Shown: in pieces, positions 657-60,208 of the stretch
Layout: the number at the start of each line of letters is the position of its first letter
Numbering within the stretch: the first letter of the stretch is position 1
NCBI RefSeq assembly: GCF_946481145.1
Contig: NZ_CAMLMJ010000013.1
Location: forward strand, 41,263 to 105,262
DNA length: 64,000 nt
Reading direction: 5' to 3'
Origin: an uncultured Sediminibacterium sp.
GTDB taxonomy: Bacteria; Bacteroidota; Bacteroidia; Chitinophagales; Chitinophagaceae
The notes under the pieces: model-generated
The model's input: only the letters and a program-made list of their open reading frames with translations
Database searches by the model: none
What the model was told of the DNA's origin: nothing
Position numbers and translations under genes: made by a program

Positions 657-728
657 TAAGCTTTAAGCTGCAAGCCATTGCTGTCCGGGAAAAATAGGCT
701 GCGAGCTTTTAGCCTCTAGCTTCTAGCC
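657..728. repeat. Heptamer array A1 (AGCTTnn words), imperfect inverted arms
   Basis: Two arms of phased 7-nt words related to AGCTTTA and AGCTTCT lie at 657-676 and 697-728, 20 nt apart. The reverse complement of the left arm matches the right arm at roughly 13 of 19 positions, so a weak hairpin is possible. It begins 4 nt after the prs stop codon, where a terminator would be expected. It belongs to the same word family as the arrays at 1066-1096 and 54168-54294. Confidence 0.7.
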
Positions 729-1065: not shown

Positions 1066-1096
1066 GCTAGTAGCTAGAAGCTGGCAGCTAGTAGCC
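1066..1096. repeat. Heptamer array A2 (GCTAGTA words), single arm
   Basis: Four consecutive 7-nt units GCTAGTA, GCTAGAA, GCTGGCA and GCTAGTA, then a partial GCC, in strict phase. It sits 20 nt upstream of the rplY -7 box, so it could affect that promoter. Same word family as 54264-54294. Confidence 0.75.
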
Positions 1097-6616: not shown

Positions 6617-6690
6617 GGCGGGGTAGCTCAGGTGGTTAGAGCGTTGGATTCATAACCCAAAGGTCTCGGGTTCAACTCCCGATCCCGCTA
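6617..6690 (+). tRNA. tRNA with CAT anticodon (elongator tRNA-Met, or tRNA-Ile2)
   Basis: A 74-nt cloverleaf. The acceptor stem is GGCGGGG with TCCCGCT (terminal G-U pairs), followed by T8 A9, a D arm GCTC-GAGC, an anticodon loop TTCATAA, a T arm TCGGG-TTCAACT-CCCGA and discriminator A; CCA is not encoded. The anticodon stem has an A31-C39 mismatch. It lacks the three consecutive G-C pairs of initiator tRNA, so it is the elongator tRNA-Met or the lysidine-modified tRNA-Ile2, which share the CAT anticodon. Confidence 0.95.
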
Positions 6691-6714
6691 CTCGTTATTT
6701 TCAAAAATAATAAA

Positions 6715-6748
6715 GAAGCCCCTACACAATGTAGGGGCTTCTTTATTA
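6715..6748 (+). terminator. Terminator after the tRNA
   Basis: A perfect 12-bp stem GAAGCCCCTACA / TGTAGGGGCTTC (6715-6726, 6730-6741) with a 3-nt loop, followed by a T-rich stretch. Confidence 0.93.
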
Positions 6749-6816
6749 TAACCATCCTTCTAGAGATACTTACAATTTAAAATATACGTTCAAAAATCAT
6801 TATATAAGTGATCCAT

Positions 6817-20139: not shown

Positions 20140-24829
<4,690 letters not shown>

Positions 24830-40629: not shown

Positions 40630-40657
40630 TCGAATCATGGGGATCGATTATGCTTAT

Positions 40658-40701
40658 AGACCTTAGACCATAGTCCATAGTCCATGGTCCATGATACATG
40701 G
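40658..40701. repeat. Heptamer array B1 (AGTCCAT words)
   Basis: Six phased 7-nt units of the type AGnCCAT or GGTCCAT in a row, 29 nt after the GH5 stop. The central part can fold on itself through CCATGG. Confidence 0.8.
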
Positions 40702-40756
40702 TTTATATGAATTGGTTGGTAACTGGTAAATGAATGAAGGAATTAGCGTATACTTA

Positions 40757-40805
40757 TAGACCATAGTCCATAGACAATGGTCCATGGACTATGGACTATG
40801 GTCTA
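40757..40805. repeat. Heptamer array B2, 17-bp perfect inverted arms
   Basis: Left arm 40757-40773 (TAGACCATAGTCCATAG) and right arm 40789-40805 are perfect reverse complements. The 15-nt centre contains the 8-nt palindrome TCCATGGA. Lies upstream of the M28 peptidase gene. Confidence 0.93.
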
Positions 40806-42604: not shown

Positions 42605-42651
42605 GGTCCATAGTCCATAGTCCATGGTCCATGGACTATGGACTATGGACC
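42605..42651. repeat. Heptamer array B3: 47-nt palindrome
   Basis: 23-nt arms around a single central T at 42628, perfectly complementary, built from phased CCATAGT, CCATGGT and mirror units. It is the most perfect member of the family; it lies after the M28 terminator, not at a gene end. Confidence 0.97.
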
Positions 42652-42885: not shown

Positions 42886-43353
42886 ATGTTCCGGAAAGTA
42901 TTGGTTGTAAATGATGATGAAATTTCTTTGTTTGTTTCCAGTAGGATGATTGCTAAAACCGGTTTTGCGGCTGAAATAATTACCGCTGTAAATGGCTTGA
43001 AAGCATTGCAGGTATTTGATCAGCTTTTATTGAATAGTAAAGAACCTGCTGAAGTACCAGAACTGGTTTTCCTTGATCTGCATATGCCTGTAATGGATGG
43101 ATGGGAGTTTCTGGAACTTTTTTCTGAGAAATATGCATACATATTTCCTTCTGTGCGGTTTGCGATACTTTCTTCATCCATTGATCCGGATGACTTGTAC
43201 AAAATAAAACGATTTTCCGCTATTGTAGATATGGTGCCAACTCCACTGAGTTTTGAAATTCTTTCAGGACTAAAGGAAAAATATGCACAAAACAATTTTC
43301 AATTTCCTCCGATTAACCATGCTACAGCTTTGCAGGATCAGATGATTGCGTGA
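42886..43353 (+). CDS. Stand-alone receiver-domain protein with Lys-to-Thr change
   Basis: A 155-residue CheY-like response regulator without output domain. The acidic pocket VVNDDEIS and the phospho-acceptor Asp64 in FLDLHMPVMDGWEF are present, as is the Ser-rich ILSSSI switch region. The conserved Lys of the usual KP motif is replaced: DMVPTPLSF has Thr119 before the Pro. That Lys normally contacts the phosphoryl group, so signalling may be altered. It has a C-terminal tail of about 20 residues. No kinase gene is adjacent; the stop codon is part of a heptamer array. Confidence 0.88.
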   Translation: MFRKVLVVNDDEISLFVSSRMIAKTGFAAEIITAVNGLKALQVFDQLLLNSKEPAEVPELVFLDLHMPVMDGWEFLELFSEKYAYIFPSVRFAILSSSIDPDDLYKIKRFSAIVDMVPTPLSFEILSGLKEKYAQNNFQFPPINHATALQDQMIA

Positions 43354-43380
43354 ATGGTCAATAGTGAATAGTGAATTGGT
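43351..43380. repeat. Heptamer array E (TGAATAG words), starts at a stop codon
   Basis: Four phased 7-nt units TGAATGG, TCAATAG, TGAATAG, TGAATTG; the first three bases are the TGA stop of the receiver gene. Single arm; no clear inverted partner was found in the 40 nt that follow. Confidence 0.65.
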
Positions 43381-48320: not shown

Positions 48321-48895
48321 AGTGGTATTGGATGATAGGAGCCCTGTTAGTTTGTTCCTGCAAAGAGAACCTTAAACAAACTATTTATACAAACACCACA
48401 CCTGTAATTCCTGCAATCACTTTACGTTTGGATAACCTGCACTTAAAACTGGTAAATGGACAATGGTTTTACCATGATACGCTGTTTAGTGGCAGGTTAG
48501 AAGATTTTTATACCAGTGGTATACTGAAGAGCAGGCAGAGTTTTTACAAAGGCAGGGAAGAGGGTTGGCTAATTGAGTGGTTTGAAAGTGGACAAAGAGC
48601 TTCGCAACGATATTACCGGGCGGGTGAGAAAGAAGGAGTACACAAGGGTTGGTGGGAAAATGGGATGCCCAGATTTACTTATCATTTTTCAAGTGGTAAA
48701 TACCATGGCGATTTTTCTGAATGGATGGTGAATGGACGGCTCGCAAAGCAAATCATTTATAAAGAGGGAAATGAGGTCAGTGGCAAAGCCTGGCGGGATA
48801 ATGGAAAACTATATATGAGCTTCGAAGTTCGGGGCGGAAGACGTTATGGTTTAATGAATGCTAAGCCTTGCTATTCCCTTAAGAGCGAAAAATAA
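48317..48895 (+). CDS. MORN-repeat lipoprotein (YwqK-like)
   Basis: A 192-residue exported protein with a lipobox-like signal (ALLVCSC) and at least four MORN-type repeats with the pattern YxxGxxxGxWxxWxxxG, for example YKGREEGWLIEWFESG and KEGVHKGWWENGMP. These repeats often mediate membrane or surface contacts; the function is unknown. Its ATGA overlap with the SCO gene shows translational coupling. The last residues (RYGLMNAKPCYSLKS) look like a conserved end. It is the last gene of the sigma-factor operon. Confidence 0.82.
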   Translation: MKWYWMIGALLVCSCKENLKQTIYTNTTPVIPAITLRLDNLHLKLVNGQWFYHDTLFSGRLEDFYTSGILKSRQSFYKGREEGWLIEWFESGQRASQRYYRAGEKEGVHKGWWENGMPRFTYHFSSGKYHGDFSEWMVNGRLAKQIIYKEGNEVSGKAWRDNGKLYMSFEVRGGRRYGLMNAKPCYSLKSEK

Positions 48896-48898
48896 AAA

Positions 48899-48920
48899 GT
48901 CCCCTGTAGAAACAGGGGAC
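48899..48920. terminator. Hairpin after the MORN gene
   Basis: A perfect 9-bp stem GTCCCCTGT/ACAGGGGAC with a 4-nt loop, 3 nt after the stop. There is no T-run on the plus strand; an A-run precedes it, so it is a better minus-strand terminator, but it may still protect the mRNA end. Confidence 0.6.
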
Positions 48921-49056
48921 GTCTTCGATTGCTTGCCATATAAGAAAAAAGATAATTCGGTGTTTGTTCCTTCTCCTCTGATTCAATTACCAATCAAAAA
49001 TAAGTGTTTATTTGATTTCAAAGTAATTTTTTTTATAATTAATATATTTTTTTCTT

Positions 49057-50930: not shown

Positions 50931-51038
50931 ATGGTCCATGGGCCGTGGTCCATAGTCCATGGTCGATAGTCCATAGTAAAAACAATTTCGGCTCTCTGGC
51001 TCTCCTATGGACCATGGTCTATGGACTATGGTCTCCAT
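50931..51038. repeat. Heptamer array B4 (ATGGTCC words), inverted arms around a 29-nt loop
   Basis: Left arm of seven phased 7-nt units (50931-50979), right arm of about four units (51009-51038). The words are the same as in B1-B3 but the arms are degenerate. It fills the 307-nt gap between the divergent DUF1573 and E1 genes, so here it is in a promoter region, not at a gene end. The rest of the gap (51040-51146) shows nothing else. Confidence 0.85.
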
Positions 51039-51146
51039 CAACATCAACCCTGGTATCTACTACTGCTAATATCATGCCTTTTTTTGCAATAAATCCACAA
51101 TTTATCCGAAAAACTAATTTCCGTTAGTCCATTCAATTGGTAATGT

Positions 51147-51154
51147 TATTTTTG
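51147..51154 (+). promoter_or_regulatory. -7 box of the second E1 gene, 4 nt from ATG
   Basis: TATTTTTG ends 4 nt before ATG 51159, the same geometry as at 50373, suggesting a leaderless message (or use of the next in-frame ATG at 51195). Confidence 0.75.
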
Positions 51155-51158
51155 TCGC

Positions 51159-53549
51159 ATGGAATCAACTTCTACCCTCGGGTATAAAAACGACATGCTG
51201 TCATTCGATGGATTCAGGAATGCAGTGATAGAAGATTACAGGACTGCTGTAGTTAGCAGGGAAGTTAGCCTATTGGGGCGTCGCGAAGTTTTAACGGGTA
51301 AGGCCAAATTTGGCATTTTTGGTGATGGTAAGGAAGTAGCCCAAATTGCGATGGCTAAATTTTTTCAACCCGGTGATTTCCGTAGTGGATATTATAGAGA
51401 TCAGACTTTCATGTTTGCAGCCGGATTAGCAAGCGTTGAACAATATTTTGCTCAACTATATGCCGATCCGGATCCAATGCATGAACCATTCAGTTCAGGT
51501 CGTCAAATGAATGCCCATTTTTCCACCCGATTTGTTGATGAACATGGTAACTGGCTCGATCTGGCGAATAGAAAAAATATATCTTCTGATATAGCCCCTA
51601 CTGCCGGACAAATGCCGCGCGGATTAGGACTAGCTTTTGCTTCACGATGTTTTAGGGCAAGCAAACACCAGGACCAACTCGAGCAACTTAGTCATAATGG
51701 AAATGAAATCTGCTTCACCACTATCGGTGATGCAAGTACTAGTGAAGGACATTTTTGGGAAACAATAAATGCTGCAGGTGTATTACAAGTGCCTTTGGCT
51801 GTATTTGTATGGGATGATGGATATGGTATTTCAGTACCGAAAAATTTCCAGACTACGAAGGGATCTATCTCTGCTGCTTTAAAAGGTTTTCAAAAACAAG
51901 CAGATACAAATGGTATACATATTTATAAAGTGAAAGCGTGGGATTATGCAGGCATGTGTGAAGTATTTGAGGAAGCCCTTGCTAAAGTGCGTGAAACACA
52001 TGAACCCGCTTTATTTCATGTAGAAGAAGTTACGCAACCACAAGGTCATTCAACCAGTGGAAGTCATGAGAGATATAAAACACCTGAAAGATTGGAATGG
52101 GAGAAGGAGTGGGATTGTATCAAAAAGATGAAAGAGTGGATGATCGAAAATGGGCTCGCATCTGTTGATGAACTCGCGGCTGTTGAGGCAGAAGCAAAAG
52201 AAATGGTTAAAACAGGCCGTAACCTTGCGTGGGAAAAATATAGTGCTCCTATTAAGGCCCAGGCAGCTCAGGCAAGTGAACTTATTCGCCAGTCTATGGT
52301 GAATGATATTGATAAGTATAACCAGTTGCAACAAATGGCCAATGAACTGGCCGCTAACAAAGAGCCACTTCGCAGAGATGTTTTACGCACCATTGCATTG
52401 GCCATTGAAGTAGCACCAGGTTCACCAACTGCACAAGACCTGAAAGCCTTACGCAGTGCATTATTAGAAGAAAGTAAAGGTTTATATAATAGTCATCTTT
52501 ATAATGAAGGTGTTAAAAGCGCATTGAAGGTTCCTGAAATTAAACCCATGATACCTTTTGATGCTGCTAATATGAATGGCTATGAGATACTAAACAAATA
52601 TTTCGACAACCTATTCAGTAGCAATCCTAAAGTATATGCATTTGGGGAAGATGTGGGATATATTGGTGATGTTAACCAGGGCTTCGCAGGGTTACAGGAA
52701 AAACATGGTAAGGATAGAATATTAGATACAGGTATTCGTGAACTAACGATTGTTGGACAAGCCATTGGTATGGCATTGCGTGGGTTGAGACCTATTGCAG
52801 AAATCCAGTACCTGGATTACCTGCTCTATGGTTTACAACCATTAAGTGATGATGTTTGTACAACCCATTTCAGAACCGGCGGACAACAAAGCTGTCCTGT
52901 AATTATTCGCACAAGGGGCCATCGTTTGGAGGGAATCTGGCATAGTGGATCGCCCATGGGAATGGTGATTAACGCCTTAAGAGGTATGCATGTTTGTGTA
53001 CCAAGAAATATGGTTCAGGCTGTAGGTATGTATAATACATTATTACAGGCTAATGATCCTGCTATTGTGATAGAATGTTTGAATGGATACCGACTCAAAG
53101 AGAAAATGCCGGAAAACCTGCTTGAATATACAGTTCCATTAGGTGTTCCTGAAATCATCAGACCTGGTGAAGATGTAACCATTGTTTCTTATGGTTCTAC
53201 TTTGCGTATAATCCAGGATGCTGTTGAAAGATTAGACAAAGATGACATTAGTTGTGAAATCATTGATGTACAAACCTTGCTACCGTTTGATACAGGTCAT
53301 GTAATTCTTTCTTCCCTTCAAAAAACCAATCGAATTATTTTCATTGATGAAGATGTGCCCGGTGGCGCTGCTGCATACATGTTTAACAAAGTAATGGAAG
53401 AGCAGGGAGGATATAGATGGCTGGATGCCAGTCCGAGAACACTAACCGCAAAAGCACATAGACCAGGTTATGGTAGTGATGGCGATTATTTCTCTAAGCC
53501 TAATGCAGAAGATGTAATCGATGCTGTTCAATCATTAATGGCGGAGTAG
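51159..53549 (+). CDS. Fused alpha+beta E1 2-oxoacid dehydrogenase, second copy
   Basis: A 796-residue thiamine-diphosphate enzyme with alpha part (about 1-330), a long linker (about 330-450) and beta part (about 470-796: VYAFGEDVGYIGDVNQGFAG, DTGIRELTIVGQAIGMALRG, and the transketolase C-terminal domain with VTIVSYGSTLRI). The TPP motif is GDASTSEG from Gly190 to WDDGYG, so the usual GDG and NN positions read GDA and DD. It is about 110 residues longer than the E1 fusion at 4508 and clearly divergent from it. No E2 or E3 gene is close. Its TAG stop is the beginning of heptamer array C. Confidence 0.9.
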   Translation: MESTSTLGYKNDMLSFDGFRNAVIEDYRTAVVSREVSLLGRREVLTGKAKFGIFGDGKEVAQIAMAKFFQPGDFRSGYYRDQTFMFAAGLASVEQYFAQLYADPDPMHEPFSSGRQMNAHFSTRFVDEHGNWLDLANRKNISSDIAPTAGQMPRGLGLAFASRCFRASKHQDQLEQLSHNGNEICFTTIGDASTSEGHFWETINAAGVLQVPLAVFVWDDGYGISVPKNFQTTKGSISAALKGFQKQADTNGIHIYKVKAWDYAGMCEVFEEALAKVRETHEPALFHVEEVTQPQGHSTSGSHERYKTPERLEWEKEWDCIKKMKEWMIENGLASVDELAAVEAEAKEMVKTGRNLAWEKYSAPIKAQAAQASELIRQSMVNDIDKYNQLQQMANELAANKEPLRRDVLRTIALAIEVAPGSPTAQDLKALRSALLEESKGLYNSHLYNEGVKSALKVPEIKPMIPFDAANMNGYEILNKYFDNLFSSNPKVYAFGEDVGYIGDVNQGFAGLQEKHGKDRILDTGIRELTIVGQAIGMALRGLRPIAEIQYLDYLLYGLQPLSDDVCTTHFRTGGQQSCPVIIRTRGHRLEGIWHSGSPMGMVINALRGMHVCVPRNMVQAVGMYNTLLQANDPAIVIECLNGYRLKEKMPENLLEYTVPLGVPEIIRPGEDVTIVSYGSTLRIIQDAVERLDKDDISCEIIDVQTLLPFDTGHVILSSLQKTNRIIFIDEDVPGGAAAYMFNKVMEEQGGYRWLDASPRTLTAKAHRPGYGSDGDYFSKPNAEDVIDAVQSLMAE

Positions 53550-53701
53550 GGTATTAGGTGTTAGGTATTAGGTGTTAGGTGTTAGGTGTGTGGTATTGGG
53601 TGTGTGGTATTGGGTATTAGGGTTGTCAATAAACCCTTTTAATACCGAAACTTAATACCTTACACCTAATACCTAACACCTAATACCTAACCCCTAACCC
53701 C
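53547..53701. repeat. Heptamer array C (TTAGGTG words), 11 + 7 units in inverted arms
   Basis: The left arm 53547-53623 has eleven uninterrupted 7-nt units (TTAGGTG, TTAGGTA, TGTGGTA, TTGGGTG and similar) and the right arm 53653-53701 has seven (TAATACC, TAACACC, TAACCCC). The arms are inverted relative to each other around a 29-nt loop. The first three bases are the TAG stop codon of the E1 gene; the right arm ends 12 nt before the end of the convergent DCC gene. It occupies the whole gap between convergent genes. Confidence 0.97.
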
Positions 53702-53713
53702 TCTAATTGCTGA

Positions 53714-54133
53714 TTAATTATAAAATAATGCTTTTAATTCAGGTGTAGGAACCCAGCATGCTTCTTGTTTACCGAACCATTTATATCGGTTACGTGCTAT
53801 GAAGTCGTAAAAGAAATTGCGGATAAAAGTTGGGATAAGGATGAGTGGGTAATACAAGATTCCCCATCCACCGCGCATATACTTCATTACTTTAAGTGCG
53901 GCAGTTGATTTAGTGTAGAGTTGCCCATTCTCTAATAAAAGAAAGGAATTAAATGTTGTTGCAGGAAGCGTAAAATGGTCCAACACTTGCTGTCCCAATT
54001 CTCCCTGTAAAGATGCAAAACGAAACCTACGTGAAGGATCATGTTTAATCACACGCTGTATACTGGCGTTACATAAATTACATACACCATCAAATAAGAT
54101 CACTGGATGCTGAAGATCCTTTAGCGTTTGCAT
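53714..54133 (-). CDS. DCC family (DUF393) thiol-disulfide protein
   Basis: A 139-residue member of the DUF393/DCC family, named for the N-terminal motif seen here as FDGVCNLCNASIQRVI (Asp-Cys-Cys spacing). Such proteins are predicted thioredoxin-like oxidoreductases; the reaction is unknown. The C terminus has a hydrophobic stretch (GILYYPLILIPTFIRNFFYDF), suggesting membrane contact. ATG 54133 follows a TAnnTTTG box by 3 nt, which argues against the longer TTG start at 54139. Converges with the second E1 gene across array C. Confidence 0.85.
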   Translation of the reverse strand: MQTLKDLQHPVILFDGVCNLCNASIQRVIKHDPSRRFRFASLQGELGQQVLDHFTLPATTFNSFLLLENGQLYTKSTAALKVMKYMRGGWGILYYPLILIPTFIRNFFYDFIARNRYKWFGKQEACWVPTPELKALFYN

Positions 54134-54136
54134 ATG

Positions 54137-54144
54137 CAAAGGTA
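54137..54144 (-). promoter_or_regulatory. -7 box of the DCC gene, 3 nt from ATG
   Basis: On the minus strand TACCTTTG ends 3 nt before the ATG at 54133; leaderless transcription is likely. Confidence 0.7.
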
Positions 54145-54167
54145 CTGAAATTGTATGGCTCTGGTTT

Positions 54168-54294
54168 AGCTCCTAGCTGCTAGAGGGTATAAAAATACGA
54201 TCTGCCCATCCTTCGAATAAGCAGATCGTTCAATATTCTAAGCCTTAATTTCTTATGTATTTTCTAGCAGCTAGCAGCTAGTGGCTAGAAGCTC
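54168..54294. repeat. Heptamer array A3 (CTAGCAG words) framing a terminator
   Basis: Left arm 54168-54187 (AGCTCCT, AGCTGCT) and right arm 54264-54294 (CTAGCAG twice, CTAGTGG, CTAGAAG). Segments 54168-54183 and 54264-54279 are complementary at 15 of 16 positions. The terminator hairpin of yebC (54197-54229) sits between them, and the right arm reaches the first base of the yebC stop codon. Confidence 0.9.
54197..54229 (-). terminator. Terminator of yebC
   Basis: Stem ACGATCTGC/GCAGATCGT with a 15-nt loop; the minus strand continues with TATTTTTAT. It is 65 nt beyond the yebC stop, nested inside array A3. Confidence 0.85.
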
Positions 54295-60019: not shown

Positions 60020-60208
60020 TAGTCCGGGGTCCGAAAGTCTGGAAGTCCGGAAGACAAAACCTTCTTTTGTGAGATTATTATAAAAAAATAGTACAACTCT
60101 GTGTAACTCCCGGGTTAACTACTATGTTGAACAGCTACACGCAGTTGAGTTAAAAAAATAACTTCCGGACTTCCGGACTTTCGGTCTTTCAGTCTTTCAG
60201 ACTTTCCT
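60020..60208. repeat. Octamer array D2 (AGTCCGGA / ACTTCCGG words), inverted arms
   Basis: Left arm 60020-60055 (AGTCCGGA-type units at 7, 8 and 8-nt spacing) and right arm 60161-60208 (six 8-nt units: ACTTCCGG twice, ACTTTCGG, TCTTTCAG twice, ACTTTCCT) are inverted relative to each other, 105 nt apart. The left arm starts 8 nt after the MFS stop; the right arm ends 13 nt before the GT9 ATG, next to its -7-like box. The space between shows no gene. Confidence 0.92.

Follow-up and report, generated by a model that had tools for sequence, protein, structure and literature searches.

Handed pairs of inverted heptanucleotide arrays in intergenic DNA of Sediminibacterium and other Chitinophagaceae

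Tandem repeats of 7-nucleotide (nt) units are named heptanucleotide STRR in heterocystous cyanobacteria, and we know of no hairpin architecture in these repeats. Heptanucleotides were reportedly the most abundant category of long simple repeats in most genomes examined by Mrazek, Guo and Shah (2007, via PMC4679880), and polymerase slippage with a 7-nt contact has been proposed for them (Mrazek 2007, via PMC4679880). According to the accessible part of PMC4692102, three heptanucleotides occur in Calothrix, and Xanthomonas genomes carry 183–186 patterns each of the heptamer GGGAATC, mostly intergenic and with degenerate units. The Xanthomonas patterns lie near stop codons on the sense strand and start codons on the antisense strand, and they form inverted pairs that are called convergent (70 in Xcc and 75 in Xac). 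They lie mostly between the same genes in both species, and their length and sequence vary much (PMC4692102). In this study, we analyzed a stretch of 64,000 nt (the window) from an uncultured Sediminibacterium sp. of the family Chitinophagaceae (contig NZ_CAMLMJ010000013.1, positions 41,263 to 105,262 of the forward strand), in which intergenic spacers carry heptamer arrays with inverted arms. The closest protein match of the window was Sediminibacterium goheungense, with 93% identity.

The most prominent of these arrays, array C, had been singled out in a sequence-only reading of the window as a case of a general intergenic architecture. Tandem Repeats Finder (TRF) confirmed that the array is real, with period 7 at 53550–53621 (10.3 copies) and at 53653–53702 (7.1 copies). 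The arms showed 91% pairing across 44 nt, with 56 nt in between. The spacer of 164 bp lies between the stop codon of a 796-amino-acid gene (51159–53549), whose product is presumably a fused 2-oxoacid dehydrogenase E1, and the convergent gene 53714–54139. The parts of array C are as follows:

53550..53621, + strand: 5′ arm, words GGTATTA/GGTGTTA, beginning immediately 3′ of the stop codon of the 51159–53549 gene
53640..53702, + strand: 3′ arm, inverted words TAATACC/TAACACC, ending 11 nt short of the convergent gene 53714–54139
53540..53715, + strand: entire spacer as a single long predicted hairpin (RNA −98.5 kcal/mol, z −11.6; DNA −47.9, z −10.4)

No intrinsic terminator (short GC-containing stem-loop and T run) was found in array C, and the core of the neighboring array was no richer in such structures than shuffled sequence. 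Rfam at the gathering threshold matched only a tRNA in the whole window, and the arrays matched no curated family.

Periodic segments were scored by self-match (match +1, mismatch −1.5). At a score of at least 17, the window contained 6 segments at period 7, 1 at 8, 4 at 14, and 1 at 21, and none at the other periods from 4 to 25. At a score of at least 14, only periods 7, 14, and 21 and, once, 8 were found, nearly all intergenic, and lowering the cut to 11 added one segment each at 5, 9, 12, 16, and 24. The sequence-only reading had made its case depend on an excess over random sequence, and this excess was clear: 100 windows simulated from a second-order Markov model gave no segment at period 7 or 8 (cut 15). 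At the same cut, 80 related loci (1.35 Mb, up to 22 kb each) gave 20 segments at period 7, 7 at 8, 18 at 14, 13 at 21, and 6 at 28, with at most 4 at every other period. First-order simulated sequence of 1.35 Mb gave 1 segment in total over periods 3–30, and 100 kb of E. coli K-12 gave none. A chance origin was rejected on these three controls. Helical phasing (3 × 7 = 21 bp) was also rejected, as it leaves the 8-nt class uncovered.

The same step dominated in larger samples. In 816,581 bp of S. goheungense there were 82 segments at period 7, 24 at 8, 2 at 11, and 1 at 12, and none at periods 3–6, 9, 10, and 13. More than half of the segment was intergenic in 71 of the 82 period-7 and 18 of the 24 period-8 segments, and the intergenic share of this DNA is 11.3%. 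The genome of a second related locus, L002, gave 28 period-7 segments in 352,117 bp, 23 of them intergenic, and 2 at period 11. In 35 Bacteroidota stretches (684,850 bp), 8 segments were found at period 7, 5 at 14, 4 at 21, 3 at 28, and 1 each at 6, 8, 11, 12, and 18. Seven is thus the dominant step in the phylum sample as well, and the density in S. goheungense is approximately eightfold higher. The idea of a general architecture holds in this limited form: a strong period-7 segment was present in 14 of the 80 Chitinophagaceae loci, and the Bacteroidota sample reaches about one eighth of the S. goheungense density. The proposal that word length is kept while the sequence is not also needed amendment, since the 7-nt step is independent of the word but an 8-nt word builds the same architecture at 60021–60053/60161–60206. 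The suggested autocorrelation survey of Chitinophagaceae was too noisy for ranking genomes when a single lag was taken over 20-kb loci.

For a survey of hairpin stems, array spacers were taken from the window and from parts of the S. goheungense (400 kb) and L002 (332 kb) genomes. At a cut of 12 there were 79 such spacers, and the survey covered the 75 of at most 520 bp. A paired stem scoring at least 10 was present in 64 of the 75 and missing in 11, and 58 of the 64 stems were themselves period-7 (self-match at least 0.6). In 53 suitable stems the mean pairing was 93%, a value inflated by choice of the best register; displacing the arms by 7 or 14 gave 66%, and the remaining shifts gave 26%. 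The order of units was tested by permuting the units of one arm in stems with at least 4 units. Agreement was 0.893 against 0.821 after permutation, and better in 23 of 26 stems. This test and the handedness and G-U tests below used spacers of up to 600 bp. The results support the conclusion that most arrays are the arms of one hairpin, matching in mirror order.

The cores between the arms are mostly local sequence. Among cores of at least 25 nt (n = 55, nested stems counted apart), one clearly duplicated element was found, and the remaining matches were short. The hairpins are therefore not spreading as units. Some long arrays, perfect or nearly so, have no equally long partner; examples are a 105-nt run of GTGAGTA and an 80-nt run of ATTGTCC. 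In S. goheungense (G001), 5 of nine contigs with readable first bases (C1, C3, C4, C5, and C7 of C1–C9) open with a perfect GTCAATG array of 97–98 nt, and C5 and C7 share the same start. Draft assemblies probably cut the longest arrays short, which would lead to undercounting.

The two arms differ in composition, a feature absent from the sequence-only reading. Of 90 period-7 stems, 55 had more RGT in the 5′ arm and 2 had more in the 3′ arm; in the other 33, RGT was equally frequent in both arms or missing. The excess of G over C was higher in the 5′ arm in 70 of these stems, lower in 14, and tied in 6; in 28 period-8 stems the 5′ arm was higher by 24 to 4. Non-periodic stems from the same genomes gave 23 to 13 for RGT and 41 to 32 for G minus C. 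The dinucleotides AG and GT were counted 301 to 65 and 256 to 29 in the 5′ versus the 3′ arm. By symmetry, the 5′ half is C-poor on each strand. Among the word matches listed, opposite-strand neighbors at most 300 bp apart were ordered plus-then-minus in 28 of 29 pairs by our own count, and the sole exception was at 22609–22656 of contig C13 in G002. The handedness was also present in divergent spacers (7 to 1 for RGT and 9 to 3 for G minus C) and hence is no by-product of transcription towards gene ends. R-loops or deamination on the transcribed strand would confine it to the direction of gene ends, and they were rejected as a cause.

Gene calls followed a simple longest-ORF (open reading frame) rule, and distances on the start side are approximate. 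The median distance from an array edge to the nearest stop codon was 7 nt (92 edges), and 50 of the 92 edges were within 12 nt, whereas the median on the start-codon side was 61 nt (66 edges). Arrays of 7- or 8-nt units occurred in 33 of 106 convergent, 70 of 342 tandem, and 19 of 126 divergent spacers of at least 60 bp. In S. goheungense, the L002 genome, and the window, the inverted pairs lie near stop codons as the Xanthomonas-type heptamers do.

Words were counted across the whole of 27 of the genomes to which the 80 loci belong, with overlapping matches counted separately (G and L numbers are our handles for genomes and loci). The pattern TAGTSAGTAGTSAGTAG had 195 matches in S. goheungense, 78 in G003, and 48 in G026; five further genomes had between 2 and 15, and the remaining 19 had none. 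The reversed control of this pattern had 0 in all 27. The pattern TRGTCSATRGTCSATRG had 214 matches in G002, 50 in G008, 25 in G022, and 1 each in G024 and G027, and 0 in 22 genomes including S. goheungense; its control had 2 matches in total over the 27 genomes. The pattern TTAGGTRTTAGGTRTTAGG, with two mismatches allowed, was found in 14 of 27 genomes, mainly G003 (62), G011 (38, as TTAGGAA), G009 (28, as TTAGGAG), S. goheungense (24), G018 (17), and G022 (13). Its control gave 15 matches over 11 genomes, at most 2 each, so single hits of this pattern carry little meaning. These counts showed that the words are lineage-specific.

Unrelated words also occupy the same site in different species. 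The spacers orthologous to those of the window were compared in 12 of the 80 loci. The spacer 3′ of the 53549 gene carries GGTRTTA in the window and AGCT-centered words in S. goheungense and L002 (5′ arm only); AGCT-centered words in L059 were below the threshold and seen by eye, and no array was found in L003, L005, L006, L007, and L026. In the spacer after it, AGCT words occur in four species (in S. goheungense by eye) and AGTCTGGAGTTAGG occurs in L007; five others lack an array. For the divergent array at 50931 of the window, 10 orthologous spacers gave no period-7 counterpart over the threshold. A second region was compared in 14 of the 27 genomes, using spacers of up to 700 with flanks. 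At spacer 149020 of S. goheungense (G1), four different words were found in S. goheungense, G002, G006, and G022, and none in two species. By eye, each of the four is paired with an inverted partner, a short one in G006, and all are handed alike. Spacer 153049 of S. goheungense likewise showed four words in four species (G006 by eye). Between the window and S. goheungense, 25 of 44 neighboring gene pairs with spacers of up to 900 were compared. All 3 S. goheungense arrays in these 25 syntenic spacers fall on the 7 window array sites (35/2300 = 0.015, calculated by hand). The position of the arrays is partly kept.

Heptamer arrays were also present at the other places named in the sequence-only reading, by TRF at 1066, 40658, 40757, 42605, 43351, and 50931, and by eye and inverted partners at 657 and 54168. 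Their words are not entirely different from place to place, as had been thought; about four families of heptamer words can be told apart in the window, TAGTCCA (40.66/40.76, 42.6, and 50.93/51.0 kb), AGCT-centered (0.7–1.1 and 54.2 kb), GTGAATA (43.35 kb), and GGTRTTA (53.55 kb). The further arrays of the window are as follows:

698..728, + strand: AGCT-word 5′ arm, 24 of 31 nt pairing with 1066–1096; a shorter run at 657–676 by eye
1066..1096, + strand: AGCT-word inverted arm, approximately 340 nt from the 698..728 arm
40657..40700, + strand: TAGACCA/TAGTCCA array, 5′ arm (TRF, inverted-repeat pairing, self-match score)
40756..40805, + strand: second TAGTCCA array, a hairpin by itself and partner to 40657–40700
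42606..42650, + strand: short-loop TAGTCCA hairpin (TRF, inverted-repeat pairing)
43350..43376, + strand: GTGAATA/GTCAATA array, partner arm not found; the S. goheungense counterpart is a complete GTGAGTA hairpin
50931..50977, + strand: TAGTCCA 5′ arm in a divergent spacer (TRF, self-match score)
51005..51034, + strand: TAGTCCA 3′ arm, pairing with 50931..50977 (TRF, inverted-repeat pairing)
54167..54194, + strand: AGCT-word 5′ arm (inverted-repeat pairing)
54260..54293, + strand: AGCT-word 3′ arm, partner of 54167..54194 (TRF, inverted-repeat pairing)
54197..54229, − strand: terminator-like hairpin, core of the 54140–54293 array, 1 in the scanned 1.1 kb against a mean of 1.0 in shuffles
60021..60053, + strand: 8-nt-word array, 5′ arm (GAAAGTCTGGAAGTCCGGAAG; TRF, inverted-repeat pairing)
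60161..60206, + strand: 8-nt-word array, 3′ arm, also present in S. goheungense and by eye absent from the 8 other orthologous spacers (6–50 nt long)

A REP-like hairpin, CCGGACTTCAGTCCGG, near a Y1_Tnp gene of S. goheungense (L100) is similar to the 8-nt word CCGGAAGT at 60021–60206, and the 8-nt word of this array may have been seeded by a REP (repetitive extragenic palindrome).

Three further elements of the window were observed. At 48889–48960, 3′ of a gene end, a stretch approximately 65 nt long (hairpin GTCCCCTGTAGAAACAGGGGAC, then GTCTTCGATTGCTTGCCATATAAG) has 82–98% identity in 18 related loci. It stands out from its surroundings, fits no Rfam family, and is possibly an undescribed RNA or regulatory element. 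At approximately 51105–51158, upstream of the 51159 gene, most of 10 orthologous spacers share, by eye, a conserved block AACTAATTTCCGTTAGTC..TTATTTTTG; it is perhaps a promoter with a regulator site. A tRNA-Met (cat) at 6617–6691 is followed by a perfect 20-nt inverted repeat at 6707–6749, an ordinary terminator-like hairpin.

We give about an even chance to the view that the arrays are hairpins of simple sequence that are generated and rebuilt in the DNA itself, by slippage with a 7–8 nt step and copying between arms, and tolerated 3′ of stop codons. Slippage in a spacer, presumably by the polymerase, would duplicate short stretches with the observed preference for a step of 7 and less often 8 nt. 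When the array sits in a foldback, one arm may be copied onto the other in replication or repair, which would give the mirror arms that the unit order supports. Arrays would persist where an extra hairpin does little harm, and their location is mainly 3′ of stop codons and between convergent genes. The words would then mutate, expand, and be replaced, and each lineage would arrive at the words of its own that it now has. The perfect long arrays in one arm and the GTCAATG contig starts point to recent expansion in 7-nt steps, and the mirror order of the arms suggests either that one arm is copied onto the other or that pairing is under selection. Loops of at least 5 nt largely evade MutS repair; this would explain the missing shorter steps, not the choice of 7–8. 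A mild role as an mRNA 3′-end hairpin is possible and is not needed by the DNA-level reading.

Several results weigh against this view. The handedness (RGT 55 versus 2) is not predicted by slippage alone, nor does slippage explain how TAGTSAG recurs in a single genome (195 matches) without shared cores. The unit order was individually significant in only 3 of 26 stems, and with the stricter null of the best cyclic register (48 stems, including shorter ones) the agreement was 0.902 against 0.890 (p = 0.04), above the null in 20 of the 48 with 23 ties. Site retention in the second region was 12/86 against 6/101, which is not significant (p = 0.08). The G-U test, used below against an RNA role, has low power, for non-periodic control stems gave 79 to 76. 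One genome per species was compared, and slippage is inferred from the arrays.

The sequence-only reading had offered slippage, template switching, enzyme-templated addition, or selection on the hairpin as generating processes, and slippage is the best supported of these. Selected RNA hairpins are possible but rather unlikely. The arrays would then be mRNA 3′ ends (terminator, exonuclease block, or insulator of convergent genes) for which any pairing C-poor heptamer suffices, and the word would drift. Such hairpins would suit the arrays that begin just 3′ of stop codons, the frequency of arrays in convergent spacers, and the very stable predicted stem of array C, and a compact hairpin was found in 14 of 81 cores of at least 20 nt compared with 49 of 1620 shuffled cores. 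However, G-U mismatches on the transcribed strand of tandem spacers numbered 68 and A-C mismatches 85, so that no G-U excess pointing to selection at the RNA level was seen in this low-power test. The handedness is the same in divergent spacers, many orthologous spacers have no array, and selection gives no reason for the 7-nt step. It is quite improbable that selection acts instead on stop codons, with words containing TAG, TGA, or TAA and a step not divisible by 3 giving stops in all frames for ribosomes from either side. Three-frame stops occur in 27 of 60 5′ arms and in 4 of 60 3′ arms read the same way, but 33 of the 60 5′ arms lack them, and words such as ATGGTCA and GATCGCA contain no stop. 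The bias is also seen in divergent spacers, where no gene ends (5/10 versus 2/10), and steps of 4, 5, and 10 nt would be equally useful yet are absent, and 11 is rare.

An origin from REP/REPIN-type mobile hairpins, moved by Y1 (RAYT) transposases, is very improbable. Y1_Tnp matches were found in 10 of 12 genomes with a period-7 array at the fetched locus and in 7 of 15 others, which hints at this origin. The hint is weakened by G003, G011, G012, and G013, which have arrays or array words and no Y1_Tnp match (some are metagenome-assembled and may be incomplete), and by the lack of clustering at RAYT genes, with 4 period-7 segments within 1 kb of the genes (45,825 bp) versus 17 in the rest of these 20 loci (248,505 bp). 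The cores are unshared and the word is not conserved, and the contrast with REP elements drawn in the sequence-only reading is supported. The Chitinophagaceae Y1_Tnp (RAYT-like) genes themselves (L085–L104) are flanked, among the loci listed, by several types of other, GC-rich REP-like hairpins, such as CCCTTTCAGGGCT (L102, L104) and GTCCCGTTAGGGAC (L088). We hold it highly improbable that an end-processing activity adds C-poor repeats of 7–8 nt to the 3′ ends on either side of a nick or break, telomere-fashion, before rejoining. If true, the fixed step, free word choice, head-to-head arms, and near-absolute handedness would all be explained together, and the chromosome would hold hundreds of healed breaks, mostly 3′ of stop codons. 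The least credible reading is a templated, telomerase-like synthesis that extends both 3′ ends of a break with C-poor heptamers before they are rejoined, giving the geometry of fused telomeres. The handedness and the C-poor strand running 3′-ward from both sides fit it exactly, and DRT10 uses variable templates to make tandem-repeat DNA, with 9-nt repeats in one system (PMC12632851). RVT_1 was searched in 20 of the 27 genomes, a search that may not detect every UG-type (UG17) reverse transcriptase. It was unmatched in 12 of the 20, among them array-bearing G001, G002, G008, G011, and G026, and matched in G003 and G022 (with arrays) and in G007, G010, G014, and G015 (few or no arrays seen). The five array-bearing genomes with no RVT_1 match in this search make a reverse transcriptase origin, and the enzyme-templated addition of the earlier proposal, less likely. 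The many words per genome and the mirror-ordered arms also speak against templated addition.

We compared the arrays with the described repeats. The sequence-only reading knew no name for them, but the class is already published (PMC4679880, PMC4692102), and the arrays here are its many-word form. No precedent in Chitinophagaceae was found in the literature searched, which excluded most subscription journals, and the accessible part of PMC4060949 does not mention heptamers of Bacteroidetes. Like heptanucleotide long simple sequence repeats, the arrays here have tandem 7-nt units beyond chance and, with a unit not divisible by 3, lie between genes; the summary of those repeats in PMC4679880 does not mention inverted handed arms, whereas the arms here are handed. 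The TAACTGA repeats, known from Beggiatoaceae, cyanobacteria, and a few Bacteroidetes, are also intergenic heptamers and occur in Microcystis beside other heptamers, but the accessible text describes a single studied word, mostly in direct repeats upstream of start codons (PMC4679880). The heterocystous-cyanobacterial STRR resemble our arrays in having several heptamer words in one genome. REPINs with RAYT share intergenic inverted pairs forming hairpins, but as far as PMC3116915 was accessible they have a conserved sequence, a linked transposase, and spread as units, whereas here the words differ within and between genomes and the cores are unshared but for one. DRT10 shares a fixed repeat length, a variable word, and one defined strand, and differs in that its product is cDNA for defence, whose repeats are 9 nt long in the system tested (PMC12632851).

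The Xanthomonas GGGAATC heptamers are like the arrays here in their 7-nt unit, intergenic position, and inverted pairs near stop codons, and by our reading of the accessible part of PMC4692102 their convergent pairs have the same handedness. Xanthomonas GGGAATC and Nostoc GGGGA(C/T)T are each one G-rich, G-quadruplex-forming word type per genome, with few inverted pairs in Nostoc, whereas here there are many words, few with G tracts, and unrelated words at one site across species. The main words TAGTGAG, TGGTGAA, TAGTCCA, TAAGAAA, and GATGTCT have no G tract, as read from the words without computing quadruplexes. G-quadruplex formation therefore cannot be the general reason. Four features had no match in the accessible literature: a single architecture built from many words, one site occupied by unrelated words, arms that mirror each other unit by unit, and a handedness measured over many words and in divergent spacers. 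Earlier explanations of heptamers concern one special word (G-quadruplexes, binding sites) or slippage. Unrelated words that build the same kind of handed hairpin in one spacer in different species remove the word as the explanation, and step length, arm pairing, and handedness remain. The old question of why the step is 7 becomes testable in the cultured S. goheungense DSM 28323, which has approximately 100 segments per Mb in the part examined.

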